From assembly GCA_018396875.1 (NCBI GenBank), contig JAGTQG010000006.1:1-50107 (forward strand): a DNA stretch of 50,107 nt, in the 5' to 3' direction. Shown here piece by piece: positions 2,378 to 12,460 of this stretch. Under the pieces are notes generated by a model. That model worked only from the letters and a program-made list of their open reading frames with translations. It did not search any database and was not told the DNA's origin. This stretch comes from Candidatus Bathyarchaeota archaeon (GTDB lineage: Archaea; Thermoproteota; Bathyarchaeia; Bathyarchaeales; Bathycorpusculaceae). Position 1 is the stretch's first letter; each line of letters begins with the position of its first letter. Both the position numbers and the translations under genes were made by a program.

Positions 2378-5300
2378 TTAGGATATGGCTATGTAAACTT
2401 TCTTATCGTCTAGGCTGTATTCATGCCATTGAACTTTGATCTCGCTTTGATTTTTATGAAGCTGCACTTTTTTGGCGCGAACAAGCTCCGCCATTTCGCC
2501 TATATATGGCCCTAGGAGTCTCATGCTTTCGTCATCTAGTCCTGCCACGTGGACAGTTTCAAGGATGTCTGTTGGCACGTAGCCCAACTCTTTTCGGAGG
2601 GACTGGACTCTTCGGGCTATGTCACGCATGAGGCCTTCGCCTAGAAGAGTTTCATCCCTGTAAATGTCTAGGTAGACGCTTATGCCCTTTTCAGAGGCTT
2701 CAACCCATCTGCCAGCATCAACTTCAGCCTTGACGCCTTCTGGAAGCGTCTCCGCGTATAGTGCCTCTTTCACGTTTGCAAGTTCTAAGAGGACATCGTT
2801 TAGACCTTGTAGTGCTTTGCAGTCTTTTTCAGAAGCCACAACCAACATTTTTCTCAAGGGCCATCTCCGCTTTAATTTGGCTTTTTGCCGTGCAGAATAA
2901 ACCAGCGAAACACACTCCAGCATTGTTTCAAACTCTTCCTCCAAGGCTCTGTTGCGAAGGCTTTCATCCACCTCTGGCCACTTTTCAAAGTTTACAGATT
3001 CTGGCAGTGCGGGGTCGAGACGCCTATAGATTTTCTGGTATAAGGCTTCGCATAGGAAGGGTGTCACCGGATTGAACAGGAGCAATGTTGTTTTTAATAC
3101 GTGCCATAGGGTTGCGTATATGGCTAGTCTGCGGTTTAGGGTTTCAGGATCGTCTGTCCAAAGCTCTTTCCTAATCATCGGCACGTACAAGCGGCTAACT
3201 GTTTCAACGACGAACTCTTCAAGTTCTGCCAGCGCCGTATTGAACTCGCATTTTTCCAGATTAGCCGTGTAATCGCCTATAGCTTTTTGAAGCTTTGAAA
3301 GAAGCCAAAAGTCTGGTTTCTTGAGCAAACCGTTGTTTTTAGCCCATTCCAGCGTGTGTCTTTGCGGGTTAAACCCGTCGTATTCAGCGTTTTGCACAAA
3401 AAACCTGTTCAAGTGGTATAGGGTTGCCAGCACTTGGTATGGGCGGCGGTTCATCTCGTTCAAGTCGAAGTTCATGAAGTCTATGGGCGAGCATTTTCTC
3501 AGCATGTAGAACCTGCAAACGTCGGCTGAAGCCTTTTCAAGAAGCTTGTTCACCTCTATTATGTTGCCTAGGCTTTTGCTCATTTTTCTGCCCTTAGCGT
3601 CTTGAGTTAACCCTTGAAACAGGAAAGCCTTGTAGGGAGCCTCCGCCTTTCCAGTCAATATCACATGCTCCAGCAACAGCGAGTTTGCCCACCCTCGAGT
3701 TTGGTCTATGCCCTCTGTGAGGAAGGCCACTGGCACGTATCTGGCGAACTCTTCATCGGTGAATCTTGCGTATGGCGATGCGCCACTGTTGTGCCACGTG
3801 TCTAAGACGAAGGGTTCCCGGTGCATAATGCCTCCACATTTCTCGCATCTTATCTTCACCCGGTCTATCCATGGCTTGTGAAGCTCAAAGTTCGGCGGAG
3901 GCTTCTCCAAAGCCTTTTCAAGAAGCTCCTTCTTGCTTGCTATGAAAGTTTTTGCGCCGCATTTTTCACAAACCCATATAGGTAGTGGAGCGCCCCAGAC
4001 ACGTTCCCTTGATATACACCACGGTTTTCCCTCTTTTAGGAAAGACAGGAAACGGTTTTTCGGGGCTTCGAAGAAGTATTCGACTTTCTCCGCTGCAGCC
4101 AAGACCTTGTCGTTTATCCGGTCTGTCCGTAGGAAGTATTCGCGTCTAGCCAGCCAAACCAGCTTGTGATGAGAACGCCAACAAGTCGGATATTCATGCC
4201 TTATCTTGTCGGCTTTTACAAGCAAGCCTCTTTTGCGCAGTTCCTCAATAACCATGCTGTCAGCGTCCCTTGCAAAAACCCCCTGGAAAAAGCCCGCTTC
4301 ACTCGTGAATTTTACCTCGTCGTCAAAGGGCGCGAAAACTGGAACACCCCGCTTTTGAGCAGCAACAAAGTCTTCTTCACCGTTGCCCGGCGAAAGATGC
4401 ACAACACCCGTAGCCGTGTTCACGTCCACAAAATCCTCACAAACAACCCTGTGTACCAGCGGATGCTTGTCCAACTCTGCCTGCTTTGGAATCAAATCTT
4501 TGAATGGATAATCGTACTTAACGCCTTCCAAACTCCTGCCAATAACGGTTTCGACAACGCTGTAATCCTTTATTCCAAGCTCCTGCATCACGGGTTCCAC
4601 GCGCTGCTTAACCATGATCCACTTCTCGTTGCCAACCTGAACCTTGGCGTACTCTGCCTCGGGATGCACAGCCAACATCAAGTCCGTTATGACAGTGAAC
4701 GGCATTGTCGTCCAAACTAGGAAATATTCGTCTTGTTCGTCGGCTACTTTGAACTTGAAGTATAGGGAGGGGTCTTCCACCTCCACATATGAGCCTTCAT
4801 AGCCAACTTCAGCACTGCTTAGGCTTGTCTGGCATCCTGGACAGTAGGCCACCACATAGTAACCTTCTTCTAGGAGGCCTTGCTCCCATGCACGTTTTAG
4901 GTATTGCCACTCCCGTTCAATGTATTCGTCGGTGTAGGTCCAATACGCCTTCTTTTGGTCTATGAACATGCCAAGCTTTCGGTCGGCTTCCACCCACTCC
5001 TTGTGGTAGCGCATAATCGTTTTCTTGCATTCTTCAACAAAACGTTCCTCGCCAACCCGCTCCAAAAGCTCCCGCTTATTTTTAACGCCTAACAGTTTTT
5101 CCACTTCAAGCTCCACGGGCAAGCCTTGACAGTCCCAGCCAGCCCAGAAAGGCACAAAATAGCCTTGCATTGTTCTCCATCGGAACCAAAGGTCTTTCAT
5201 TACGCGGCCTCTGGCATGGCCAACGTGAGGTATGCCGTTTAGCGTTGGCGGGCCCTCAACCCAGCCTAAAACACCTACGTTGTTTTTTTCGCGGTGTTCC

Positions 5301-8427: not shown

Positions 8428-9486
8428 CTAAAGCGACCCACTTAAAAAGCCATATAACAGTCCAGATGCTACGCTCCCAGCCCAAGCAATTACCACGTAG
8501 ATGGCTACAACCTTCCATTTGGCTATCCTTGAAACAGCCATGGCGTTGGCGAAATCGTAGGGTTGCCCCATAAGCCAACTCAGCAAGGCGCCTTTCGACA
8601 TGCCTTTACTCCATAACTCTTGTCCAAGTGCAATTTCGACAAGAGTTGGCGTGTAAAGGGGTCCACCAAGAACTGAGGCTACCAAAACACCAGTAACACC
8701 TGTCAAATATGCTTCAACAATTTCCTCTGGAATAAACGCCGAAAGATAACCCACTACTATAAGGCCAACAATGAAGAATGGGAGAATCTGTTTTGCCAAG
8801 TATCCCGCAAATTTCAGAGCTGCCCAGAGCCTCTCGTCTAAAGGCGGCTTGACAATCTCCACTTTAGCCGAAGGAGCAGCGGAATTGGCTACTTGAAACT
8901 CCTTTTCGATGGCTTTGCCCCACGGTGTTATTGAGACTATAAAGCCTGCAATGAGGGCTACGGCCGCAGACGTTAATATGCGCACTCCTGCTATTTCCCA
9001 TGAAATCATTTCGCCAGTCATCAGAATTGTTAAGATGTTCGCCGCCGGTGCCATTAGAAGGAAGGCGACAGCTGGGCCTATTCCAGCTCCAGCGTATAAG
9101 ACTCCGCCGAAAAGGGGAACCATTGTGCATGAGCAAACAGTTAGGAAGGGCGCCATTCCAAGAGCCAAAAAGTATCCGACGGCTTTGCCCCGCCCCATAT
9201 ATTTTGTTATGGCCTCTTTTGGCACAAACTCGTAGATTAAGCCGGCGACGCTAAACGCGAAAAGGAGACATATCCAAGCGTGGCTGAAGTAGTCGGCAAT
9301 GTAAAGCACCGGAATGGCTATATATACAAGCGGTGTACCCCACAGACCAAGCTCGTCCAGCTTGTTTCTGAAAGTCTCTTTTGTAGGCCGGGCTGTGACG
9401 CGACTATAAACTAGGAGGCTTATAACTATTATGAAAAAGGCTAACAGAATACCTGTTTTGACAGTCCTCTTTGTTTTTCCGTCCAT
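8428..9486 (-). CDS. Permease of the ArsP/DUF318 family
   Basis: A 352-residue polytopic membrane protein with about 8-9 helices. The signature CSCTMVPLFGGVLYAG and FLLMAPAANI, then a second related repeat (VLGGPLYTPTLVEIALG, SWLMGQPYDFANAMAV), belongs to PF03773 (predicted permease; some members, ArsP, export trivalent organoarsenicals). Here it is in one operon with a thioredoxin-like protein and across a shared promoter from an ArsR regulator. The cargo is therefore likely a thiophilic compound such as an arsenical, but other sulfur or metal species are possible. Confidence 0.85.
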   Translation of the reverse strand: MDGKTKRTVKTGILLAFFIIVISLLVYSRVTARPTKETFRNKLDELGLWGTPLVYIAIPVLYIADYFSHAWICLLFAFSVAGLIYEFVPKEAITKYMGRGKAVGYFLALGMAPFLTVCSCTMVPLFGGVLYAGAGIGPAVAFLLMAPAANILTILMTGEMISWEIAGVRILTSAAVALIAGFIVSITPWGKAIEKEFQVANSAAPSAKVEIVKPPLDERLWAALKFAGYLAKQILPFFIVGLIVVGYLSAFIPEEIVEAYLTGVTGVLVASVLGGPLYTPTLVEIALGQELWSKGMSKGALLSWLMGQPYDFANAMAVSRIAKWKVVAIYVVIAWAGSVASGLLYGFLSGSL

Positions 9487-9500
9487 GCTTTTCGTCCTTC

Positions 9501-9773
9501 CTACTTGGCTGCTTCCATTATCATTTTTTCCACTTCTTCCGGGCTTGGAACTCGCCCCATAATTTTGACTGTGTTGTTTATGGCTATAGCCGGCGAAACT
9601 AGCACACCGTATTTTTGAACTATTTCCTTTGACATTATGTTGGCTTTTTCAACGTTAACCATAAAACCAGCTTGCCTAAGCTTTTCAGCCGCCTTTTCTA
9701 CAGCCTTTTTCGCTGCCTGGCATCGCATGCAAGGAGGCTCAGGTCCAATGACTTCTACTTTAACTTCCTTCAT
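9501..9773 (-). CDS. Small thioredoxin-like disulfide protein
   Basis: A 90-residue protein of the thioredoxin_3 (small redox-active disulfide) type. The CxxC motif is EPPCMRCQAA (Cys15, Cys18); the cis-proline region is GVLVSPAIAINNTVKIMGRVPSPEEV. It lies 14 bases upstream of the permease gene on the same strand, making it the first gene of that operon. A good Shine-Dalgarno (AAGGTGA) precedes the ATG. Two paralogues lie across the promoter at 10183 and 10447. It probably exchanges thiols or passes a bound metalloid to its partners. Confidence 0.88.
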   Translation of the reverse strand: MKEVKVEVIGPEPPCMRCQAAKKAVEKAAEKLRQAGFMVNVEKANIMSKEIVQKYGVLVSPAIAINNTVKIMGRVPSPEEVEKMIMEAAK

Positions 9774-9800
9774 GCTTTTTCACCTTGGAGAATGAGAGGA

Positions 9801-9830
9801 TCTATAGCAATATTTAAATATTGCTATAGA
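9801..9830. promoter_or_regulatory. Perfect 30-bp palindrome: bidirectional ArsR operator/promoter
   Basis: The 15-base half site TCTATAGCAATATTT is followed directly by its exact reverse complement AAATATTGCTATAGA. The centre TATTTAAATA is a TATA box that reads the same on both strands. It is 25-30 bases from the starts of the arsR gene (right) and about the same distance from the expected start of the thioredoxin-like transcript (left). A dimeric ArsR bound here would block TBP for both directions. Confidence 0.8.
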
Positions 9831-9855
9831 CTTTGCTTTAAACGTGCATCCGACA

Positions 9856-10167
9856 ATGAAAAACATCGACAAGTTTAGGGCTAGGGTGTTCAACGCGCTC
9901 GCTGACCCTGTTAGGCTTAAGATCCTCGAGTTCTTGCGCGATGGCGAGAGATGCGTCTGCGAAATCGTTCCATATGTTGGTATAGCCCAGCCGCTGGTTT
10001 CTAGACACTTGGCGATTCTGAAGCGGTGCGGACTTGTAAGGGATAGGAAAGAGGGAAACAAGCGGTTCTATTCGGTGACAAGTCCGACTGTTTTCAGGGT
10101 GATTGACGCCGTTGACGCAAGCTTTGTGGATGCACTTGTGAGGCATGTTGTTGAACAGATAGCCTAG
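9856..10167 (+). CDS. ArsR/SmtB-family repressor
   Basis: A 103-residue winged-helix regulator (FNALADPVRLKILEFL, recognition helix IAQPLVSRHLAILKRCGLV, wing RKEGNKRFYSV). The stretch GERCVCEIV carries a CxC pair at the place of the classic ELCVCDL metal-binding motif, so it likely senses a thiophilic metal or metalloid, or thiol oxidation. An upstream in-frame GTG at 9844 could also serve as a leaderless start. It is the first gene of the right-hand operon and probably binds the palindrome at 9801-9830. Confidence 0.9.
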   Translation: MKNIDKFRARVFNALADPVRLKILEFLRDGERCVCEIVPYVGIAQPLVSRHLAILKRCGLVRDRKEGNKRFYSVTSPTVFRVIDAVDASFVDALVRHVVEQIA

Positions 10168-10182: not shown

Positions 10183-10443
10183 ATGGTTGTGAAGGTTGAA
10201 ACCTTTACGGCGGAACCGCCGTGTGCGGGTTGCCTAAAACTTTTAGAGTATGCAGATTCGATTAAGGCGAGATATGGCGATAGAGTGGAAGTTATAAAGC
10301 ATATTGGACCATGCGAGGAGTTCAGCAAATACGGCTTAACAGTGGTTCCAGCCATAGTCTTCAATGAGGGCAAAATAAAAATCATGGGCGTCTGCCCAAG
10401 CCTCCAAACCATTGAAGCTGCGCTTAAGGAAATGGGGGTTTAG
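10183..10443 (+). CDS. Thioredoxin-like disulfide protein with CxxC
   Basis: An 86-residue thioredoxin_3-type protein. CAGC at residues 14-17 is the redox pair; cis-Pro region LTVVPAIVFNEGKIKIMGVCPSLQTI contains a further Cys (GVCPS). It sits 15 bases after arsR. It is clearly a paralogue of the next gene (same EPPC and IxIxGVCPS motifs) and more distantly of the 9501 gene. Confidence 0.85.
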   Translation: MVVKVETFTAEPPCAGCLKLLEYADSIKARYGDRVEVIKHIGPCEEFSKYGLTVVPAIVFNEGKIKIMGVCPSLQTIEAALKEMGV

Positions 10444-10446
10444 GAA

Positions 10447-10707
10447 GTGCCGGTAAAAGTTGAGGTTTTCACTTCTGAACCGCCATGCTCAGGCGGAAGA
10501 CTGCTCCTCAAACTCATAGAGAAAATCAAAGAAGAGTACAAGGATAAAATTGAGGTTGAAATCTACCGTGGAATAAACCCGAAACTAAGTGAGTATGGCA
10601 TAAACTCCAGTCCCGCCGTAGTCATCGACAAGGACATTCGTATAATAGGGGTTTGTCCAAGTGAAGAAACTTTCAAAGAAGCGTTAAGAGAGGCAGGCGT
10701 TCAATAG
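10447..10707 (+). CDS. Thioredoxin-like protein with altered active site
   Basis: An 86-residue paralogue of the previous gene, with GTG start 3 bases after its stop. The active site reads EPPCSGG, so the first Cys (residue 14) is kept while the second is replaced by Gly. The distal Cys in GVCPSEETF is also kept. A monothiol protein of this kind could bind a metal or form mixed disulfides but not a normal CxxC disulfide. Its stop overlaps the next start (TAGTG). Confidence 0.8.
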   Translation: MPVKVEVFTSEPPCSGGRLLLKLIEKIKEEYKDKIEVEIYRGINPKLSEYGINSSPAVVIDKDIRIIGVCPSEETFKEALREAGVQ

Positions 10708-11045
10708 TGTCCGAGGTTGTCAAACAGACTTGGCGTGGAATACCTCGCGAGAAGATAGATTGGCATCCAACCGTTGACCCGGAACTTTGCATAGGATGCG
10801 GTATATGCGTCTTAAATTGCGGGAAAAACGTTTACCGGTTCAACTATGAGAAAGATGTGGCCGTAGTTGCAAATCCAATAAACTGTATGGTAGGCTGCAC
10901 AACATGCCAAAACACTTGCCCGCAACACGCAATAAGTTTTCCACCGTTATCTTACCTGCACAAGTTGATAAAGAAGAATATGGTGGTGCAACGTAGTAGA
11001 GAAGAACTACTAGCAAACAAGACAAAATACGAGGTTAAAAAGTAG
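10707..11045 (+). CDS. Ferredoxin, 2x[4Fe-4S]-type
   Basis: A 112-residue protein with GTG start sharing one base with the preceding stop. Cluster motifs are CIGCGICVLNC (C-x2-C-x2-C-x3-C) and CMVGCTTCQNTCP (C-x3-C-x2-C-x3-C), the latter followed by AISFPP. It matches the ferredoxin part of the 7876 fusion but has no zinc ribbon; instead it ends in a basic helix. Its place between thioredoxin-like genes and a 4Fe-4S protein suggests it feeds electrons to these. Confidence 0.85.
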   Translation: MSEVVKQTWRGIPREKIDWHPTVDPELCIGCGICVLNCGKNVYRFNYEKDVAVVANPINCMVGCTTCQNTCPQHAISFPPLSYLHKLIKKNMVVQRSREELLANKTKYEVKK

Positions 11046-11059
11046 TTTGGAGATGCCTT

Positions 11060-11650
11060 TTGGAGAAAAACGCTGAGGATTTGGCTGAACTCCTTTTTGC
11101 AGATGTTGTTGTCAGAAAGATCGAAATTAAAGAGATTTCGCCTTGTACAGCCGACCCGGAAAGGATTAAGTTTTTGGCGCAGGCTGACAAGCCCCTAGAA
11201 GATATTTTGCCGATTCTTTATTTGGCTATTCCAAACGCCAAATACTCCGAAAAGCTCGGCGCATTAAGCTACATGTACCAGCAACACTTGATAACCATTT
11301 TCGCTAATGGCAGAATTAGCATGACCTACGTTAAAGATAGAAACGAGGCAAACCAACTTGTCGAAGAGGCTAGATGGCTGATAAACCGCGCCATTATATA
11401 CCTGAAAACCCATGGAAAACCAAGCCCCGAAATCGTTCAAGCCAAAAAAGAGCTGACGCCAGTAAAAATTTACGAGATGCTGCCGAAAACGAACTGCAAA
11501 ATGTGTGGAGAACAAGGCTGCTTCGCCTTCGCAGCAAAACTCTTAAACGGAGAGAAAACACTGCAAGACTGCCCACCACTAGACTATAAGGAGCACAACA
11601 AACTCAAGTTTCAAATAGAGAAAATGCTCAGTCCAATCAAGTTGAAGTAG
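11060..11650 (+). CDS. 4Fe-4S (FeS domain) protein of unknown role
   Basis: A 196-residue protein, TTG start. The C-terminal part (about 140-172) has CKMCGEQGCFAFAAKLLNG followed by DCPPL, the 4-Cys pattern of the FeS domain (PF04060) found in RnfB and in the corrinoid protein of the acetyl-CoA pathway. The N-terminal 130 residues (EISPCTADPERIKFLAQ, ISMTYVKDRNEANQLVEEARWLINRAI) are not recognised. It follows the ferredoxin by 14 bases and is the last gene of the ArsR-headed operon. Confidence 0.75.
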   Translation: MEKNAEDLAELLFADVVVRKIEIKEISPCTADPERIKFLAQADKPLEDILPILYLAIPNAKYSEKLGALSYMYQQHLITIFANGRISMTYVKDRNEANQLVEEARWLINRAIIYLKTHGKPSPEIVQAKKELTPVKIYEMLPKTNCKMCGEQGCFAFAAKLLNGEKTLQDCPPLDYKEHNKLKFQIEKMLSPIKLK

Positions 11651-11702: not shown

Positions 11703-12104
11703 ATGGGATTCGATAAAATGTCCAAGCCAAAGATTAATGAAAGACTTATGCGGCTGGTGATCTCTGGACTTTGCCCTCACGAGGACCCAACAGAATATGC
11801 GGAAGAACTAAAAGAGTTAGCCAACGCTGTTGTAAACGTTGACGAAGCTGAAAGGCTGTGCAAGACTTTAAGGGCGTTAGCAGACACAAACAGGATAAGA
11901 ATTCTAAAACTGTTAGAAGTTAGAGAAATGTGCGTCTGCGAAATCATGATCGCCCTCGGGTTAACACAGCCAACAGCCTCGCACCACCTTAGAATCTTGG
12001 AAAACGCTAGGCTCATAAAGGGGAGAAGAGAGGGCAAATGGGTTTTCTACAAGATTGCAAAGCCAGAAATAATGCGAATTCTACAAGAATTAGATAGGGT
12101 GTGA
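11703..12104 (+). CDS. ArsR-family regulator with N-terminal extension
   Basis: A 133-residue protein. Residues 50-125 form an ArsR winged helix (LCKTLRALADTNRIRILKLL, LTQPTASHHLRILENARLI, RREGKWVFYKI) with EMCVCEIMIALG giving a CxC sensor site like that of the first ArsR. The first 45 residues (ISGLCPHEDPTEYAEELKELANAVV) are extra and carry a further Cys and His. It ends 5 bases before a convergent hypothetical gene. Its own target may be the same redox island. Confidence 0.85.
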   Translation: MGFDKMSKPKINERLMRLVISGLCPHEDPTEYAEELKELANAVVNVDEAERLCKTLRALADTNRIRILKLLEVREMCVCEIMIALGLTQPTASHHLRILENARLIKGRREGKWVFYKIAKPEIMRILQELDRV

Positions 12105-12109
12105 AATGC

Positions 12110-12460
12110 TTAAATGGTCCAGTATGAACAGATAAGCATGTTTTCACGTTTAATCTGTTCCTTTAGGAACTTTACGACATCTTCCTCCTCTAAGTAGCGA
12201 TTTCCCTTAACGTCCCTTCGCAGTGAGATACCTGTTTCTCTGAGTTTTTCGCCATCCCCTGGGGAATCTATTAAGACGTAATAGGCTTGTCCAGCGGGCA
12301 ATATAAGCCTCAAATTGGTTAGCTCCCTTTTTGGCGACAGCCCATCTTGTTCAATGTTGTAAACTATGGCTTTGGGATTTAGGCTTTCAGCTAGGCGTTT
12401 GAATTCAACCCAGCTTCTAATTTTAACTACGCCTTTGCTAGAACTCTCTTTCGATTGCAT
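12110..12460 (-). CDS. Hypothetical protein (116 aa)
   Basis: A soluble 116-residue protein with no family I recognise. It has an alternating strand/helix pattern: SWVEFKRLAESLNPKAIVYNIEQ, LTNLRLILPAGQAYYVLIDSP, a turn DGEKLRETGISLRRDVKGN, and a C-terminal helix EEEDVVKFLKEQIKRENM. It may continue the minus-strand unit that begins with the small zinc-finger gene at 12511-12645, which ends 50 bases upstream. Confidence 0.6.
   Translation of the reverse strand: MQSKESSSKGVVKIRSWVEFKRLAESLNPKAIVYNIEQDGLSPKRELTNLRLILPAGQAYYVLIDSPGDGEKLRETGISLRRDVKGNRYLEEEDVVKFLKEQIKRENMLICSYWTI

Follow-up and report, generated by a model that had tools for sequence, protein, structure and literature searches.

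The question raised by this locus is whether a single palindromic element can serve both as the binding site of a repressor and as the TATA box of two divergent promoters. The element lies in the 70-nt spacer between an ArsR operon on the plus strand and a permease operon on the minus strand, an arrangement that a preliminary description had proposed and that is borne out by gene annotation. The whole stretch of DNA analysed, 50,107 nucleotides, is referred to below as the window. The features involved are as follows.

8428-9486, minus strand: ArsP_1-family permease (PF03773, 2e-46, above the Pfam cutoff)
9501-9773, minus strand: thioredoxin-like protein encoded by the first gene of the divergent operon (Thioredoxin_3; MTH895/ArsE-like, with a score under the NCBIfam cutoff)
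9780-9786, minus strand: Shine-Dalgarno-like AAGGTGA of the gene at 9501-9773, read directly from the sequence
9801-9830, no strand: perfect palindrome, predicted ArsR operator, from exact self-complementarity and a conserved core
9804-9827, within the palindrome: conserved 24-bp core ATARCAATATTTAAATATTGYTAT
9811-9820, no strand: TATTTAAATA, self-complementary TATA box at the dyad, predicted for both directions as the only 8/8 TATA match
9844-10167, plus strand: ArsR1, ArsR/SmtB regulator with CxC (Cys37, Cys39) and QPxVSRHL recognition helix (PF01022, NF033788 and alignment)
10183-10443, plus strand: thioredoxin-like protein of the ArsR operon (PF13192)
10447-10707, plus strand: thioredoxin-like protein of the ArsR operon (PF13192)
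10707-11045, plus strand: ferredoxin-like 4Fe-4S protein, whose homologues head other operons bearing the operator
11060-11650, plus strand: protein with FeS domain (PF04060)
11703-12104, plus strand: ArsR2, second ArsR-family protein and last in the gene run (PF01022, 2.4e-17)

The palindrome at 9801-9830

The 30-bp element is a zero-gap palindrome, TCTATAGCAATATTT followed by AAATATTGCTATAGA, and equals its own reverse complement; direct reading of the sequence thus bears out the earlier account of a half site followed by its exact reverse complement. It is the longest palindrome in the window, being followed by a zero-gap palindrome with arms of 10, and the only 100%-complementary inverted repeat reported there for arms of 12 or more and a gap of 20 or less. 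A first-order Markov simulation with the same dinucleotide make-up gives an expectation of ~4.5e-5 zero-gap palindromes with arms of at least 15 per 50 kb, so that the rarity claimed for the element was upheld and a chance origin was rejected. A second copy with up to 3 mismatches was not found in the assembly, which comprises 1.25 Mb in 41 contigs and is 93.8% complete.

ArsR1 and its start codon

ArsR1 belongs to the ArsR/SmtB family: its winged-helix domain scores above the curated cutoffs (PF01022, 6.8e-19, 67.9 bits against a cutoff of 22; NF033788, 96.8 bits against 55) and a CxC thiol site stands beside the helix-turn-helix. Among 19 aligned ArsR1 orthologues Cys37 and Cys39 are invariant, as are the Q, P, V, S, R, H and L of the QPxVSRHL recognition helix. 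We take the CxC to resemble the As(III) site of bacterial ArsR, with an NCBIfam match that lies below cutoff. The score of ArsR1 against the MsvR model, 39.3 bits, is below the family cutoff of 220.

The preliminary description had placed the ArsR gene at 9856. An ArsR gene does lie to the right of the palindrome, but it probably starts at GTG 9844 rather than at ATG 9856, judging from start-codon positions in related loci. Among 60 distinct operator sites, ArsR start codons cluster 27-31 nt from the dyad, and GTG 9844, at 28 nt, stands at the modal distance in orthologues; the window and its closest relatives share a conserved, in-frame GTG or ATG at 27-28 nt, and an ATG at the inner start position is absent in L015 and L016. 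If the inner ATG is taken as the start, distances near 40 nt result for the window and these relatives. In a mapped archaeal promoter 27 nt separate the TATA centre from the transcription start downstream of it, and in a close relative the transcript is said to have no leader (PMC3729527). Because the clustering at 27-31 nt fits such a promoter, ArsR1 is probably leaderless from GTG 9844, a start that gives a protein of 107 aa.

Conservation of the operator in related genomes

The comparison of the spacer in related genomes suggested by the preliminary description was carried out, and the motif is conserved upstream of ArsR1 orthologues. The orthologues were gathered by protein search alone, blind to the DNA motif; in 10 of the 12 with at least 95 residues matched and at least 50% identity the core AATATTTAAATATT lies just upstream, and it was not found upstream of more distant ArsR genes. 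The motif across 25 sites is ATARCAATATTTAAATATTGYTAT, in which the outer ATA/TAT triplets are nearly invariant; the inner 14 bases were used for site selection and these triplets were not. A perfect 30-bp palindrome is also present in L014, and L017 has a longer palindrome with arms of 20. Judged by the relatives recovered, the genome of the window belongs in or near Bathyarchaeia.

Of 398 genomes of the phylum, 17 carry the exact 16-mer and 1 carries its reversed control; 14 of the 17 exact sites adjoin ArsR, thioredoxin-like or ferredoxin genes, and the matches in L044, L046 and L049 look like chance. In the class, the 24-mer with at most 2 mismatches was detected in 21 of 151 genomes (reversed control, 0), and ArsR1 is encoded by 20 of these 21 site-bearing genomes versus 45 of the 151 overall (Fisher 1.3e-11). 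The association between the 24-mer and ArsR1 is also seen inside the window's own family (Fisher 4e-4), both Fisher values treating genomes as independent though they are related. At 57 of the 60 distinct sites a gene of a recurring set starts about 20-80 nt away, a figure to be read as descriptive, some of these genes being themselves in the reference set.

The operator diverges, since two close ArsR1 orthologues (L011 and L029) are without the site and no match to the 24-mer with at most 2 mismatches was found in 25 class genomes with ArsR1-profile matches; several ArsR1-bearing class genomes without a 24-mer match keep one arm. Outside the phylum, 119 genomes of the phylum of L019 gave one exact site and one weak 2-mismatch match, and 28 genomes of the phylum of L015 gave one site. 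The operator is thus not general in the other phyla sampled, and the L019 and L015 sites are sporadic (transfer or misbinning).

Individual loci show variation in site structure. In L013 two overlapping operator copies are present (3940-3990), flanked on one side by sequence that matches the left flank of one L012 site and on the other by sequence that matches the right flank of the second (L012:2379 and 3964); 1.6 kb separates the two L012 sites, and L013 looks as if recombination had deleted that stretch. A variant site, ATAACAATATACAAATATTTAAATATTGCT, has an apparent extra half-site beside the core (L100:1440-1490 and L104:1435-1485). In L090-L096, L101 and L102 the operator arm nearest ArsR is lost and the distal arm is intact.

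The regulon and its probable inducer

The operator half of the original idea held up beyond the ArsR1 genes, as the motif is also found at other arsenic and redox genes, and the reversed controls gave no matches or hardly any. ACR3 arsenite-efflux genes share operons with an ArsR1-type ArsR and the site in L018, L043 and L075, an ArsC-like (arsenate-reductase-like) gene is near the L075 sites, and an ArsM arsenite methyltransferase gene (L079:800-1608) has a weak 3-mismatch operator about 30 bp upstream. Elsewhere the operator stands at or beside ferredoxin and thioredoxin-like genes. What marks an ArsR operator is therefore present here: an inverted repeat beside arsR, conserved in orthologues and recurring at other arsenic genes. 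Because sites recur at ACR3, ArsC-like, ArsM and ferredoxin genes, an arsenic-type ArsR regulon is likely. The window genes examined yielded no ACR3, ArsC or ArsM, and the case for arsenic as inducer therefore comes from the relatives.

A small protein encoded at 12110-12460 on the minus strand of the window has no Pfam match. It shares 46% identity with a protein of L074 whose gene directly follows the same operator, and its relatives adjoin operator sites in L071, L075 and L076; it is probably an uncharacterised member of the operator's regulon family.

The TATA box and the meaning of the symmetry

The palindrome centre had been described as a TATA box on both strands, and TATTTAAATA does hold an 8/8 match to TTTAAATA/TTTATATA that is unique in the 70-nt spacer, both strands considered; no other good TATA was found there on either strand, the next best match being 6/8. 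The start codons lie 28 nt (ArsR1, GTG 9844) and 42 nt (divergent thioredoxin-like gene) from the dyad, so that a single TATA box has start codons at fitting distances on both sides, as in a bidirectional promoter. As the spacer is without another good TATA, this one most likely serves both operons, and a predicted TATA box shared by the two directions and combined with an operator is well supported.

The earlier suggestion that one element could place the transcription machinery in either direction stands as far as the sole good TATA and the start distances go; the symmetry of the element adds no proof of it. Both arms are nearly intact at 17 of 30 two-gene sites versus 13 of 27 sites with one detected downstream gene, although the one-gene calls may still miss some genes. 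Near-symmetric one-gene sites are thus common, symmetry alone does not show bidirectional transcription, and symmetry as a mark of divergent gene pairs was rejected. At one-gene sites the upstream arm is kept better (mean 11.6 versus 10.3 of 12 downstream; Wilcoxon 7e-4). The palindrome is best explained as mainly reflecting the binding of a repressor dimer, and the simplest reading of the arm comparison is that both arms would bind the dimer and the upstream arm would have an added promoter role.

The same observations are what favours a rather unlikely alternative, in which the ArsR operator overlaps the TATA box of only one direction, and the other operon would be transcribed from a weak or separate promoter and owe any repression to proximity. 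Near-symmetric sites with one detected gene, such as that of L034 between co-directional genes, and the better-kept upstream arm would be expected of such an arrangement; against it stand the lack of another good TATA on either strand of the spacer, about 30 divergent pairs whose two starts are regularly spaced from a common centre, and the loci with wider spacing (L093, L096), where each gene has a separate site.

Proposed mechanism

We consider it probable that 9801-9830 is the ArsR1 operator, that it surrounds the one TATA box shared by two divergent promoters, and that ArsR1 bound there silences both operons. Without inducer, an ArsR1 dimer on the dyad would block TBP/TFB and silence together the ArsR1 operon (ArsR1, two thioredoxin-like proteins, iron-sulphur proteins and ArsR2) and the thioredoxin-like/ArsP operon. 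An arsenic(III)-type thiophilic ligand would probably bind the conserved CxC cysteines and release the dimer. From the freed TATA box, rightward transcription would start near 9842 and give a leaderless ArsR1 transcript read from GTG 9844, and leftward transcription would start near 9788 and give a short-leader transcript with the Shine-Dalgarno sequence and ATG 9773. If one TATA serves both operons, TBP/TFB would assemble in only one direction at a time. The fuller proposal, in which one symmetric TATA box serves both operons, a single-site ArsR dimer acts as the switch and the design is conserved across Bathyarchaeia and some neighbouring Thermoproteota, is put forward tentatively.

That the binder is ArsR2 (11703-12104) or another regulator in place of ArsR1 seems quite improbable: ArsR2 does belong to the same gene cluster, but the site adjoins ArsR1 orthologues in loci where no ArsR2 is seen (e.g. 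L014, L017 and L018). ArsR2 might still bind in addition to ArsR1. It is very improbable that the motif is a strong symmetric core promoter (BRE-TATA-BRE) that ArsR does not bind. A textbook TATA centre and an upstream arm conserved better, as a BRE would be, are consistent with such a promoter, but the sequence is far stricter than TATA/BRE requires and occurs once in the assembly, and the motif follows ArsR1 from genome to genome and singles out a specific functional gene set. An RNA hairpin or terminator, or a mobile-element scar, was rejected as almost certainly wrong, since the match in a terminator-pattern scan is countered by only 3 G-C pairs, the lack of a proper T tail, a location upstream of start codons, arms that vary independently at position 9, the loss of one arm at some sites, and few copies per genome tied to one regulon.

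Relation to known systems and significance

The nearest archaeal parallel to the proposed ArsR1 switch is MsvR at the divergent msvR/fpaA promoter of methanogens. This autoregulating protein has a dimer interface like that of ArsR and, at divergent promoters that overlap, keeps TBP/TFB from BRE/TATA (PMC3729527). The MsvR boxes (TTCGTAN4TACGAA) lie beside or over BRE/TATA or the start site (PMC3729527), whereas here the TATA box is the operator dyad; ArsR1 also differs from MsvR: it is a short, CxC-bearing ArsR that scores far under the cutoff of the MsvR family. Bacterial ArsR/SmtB operators are imperfect 12-2-12 inverted repeats (PMC6555750), and the present element is like them an inverted repeat upstream of ars/metal genes, predicted to be bound by a small winged-helix dimer, but it has no central spacer and its AT-only core holds an archaeal TATA box. 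Symmetric core promoter elements allow divergent transcription according to Warman et al. 2021, as cited in PMC10268837; in comparison with the promoters as presented there, the symmetry here is regulator-specific, extends over 24-30 bp and has a protein-coding operon on either side. The open-access text searched gave no record of the operator or of AATATTTAAATATT, only unrelated papers. The components are each of a known kind, and the fused operator-TATA form and its sequence appear to be undescribed in the searched text.

If the fuller proposal is true, the switch formed by a single ArsR dimer would induce both operons together and yet force them to share initiation events. The locus offers a compact natural case in which a repressor site would be the shared core promoter DNA, useful for the study of how transcription direction is chosen in archaea. 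It also gives an arsenic-type stress response of archaea that are largely uncultured an operator and a regulon that are specific and can be tested.
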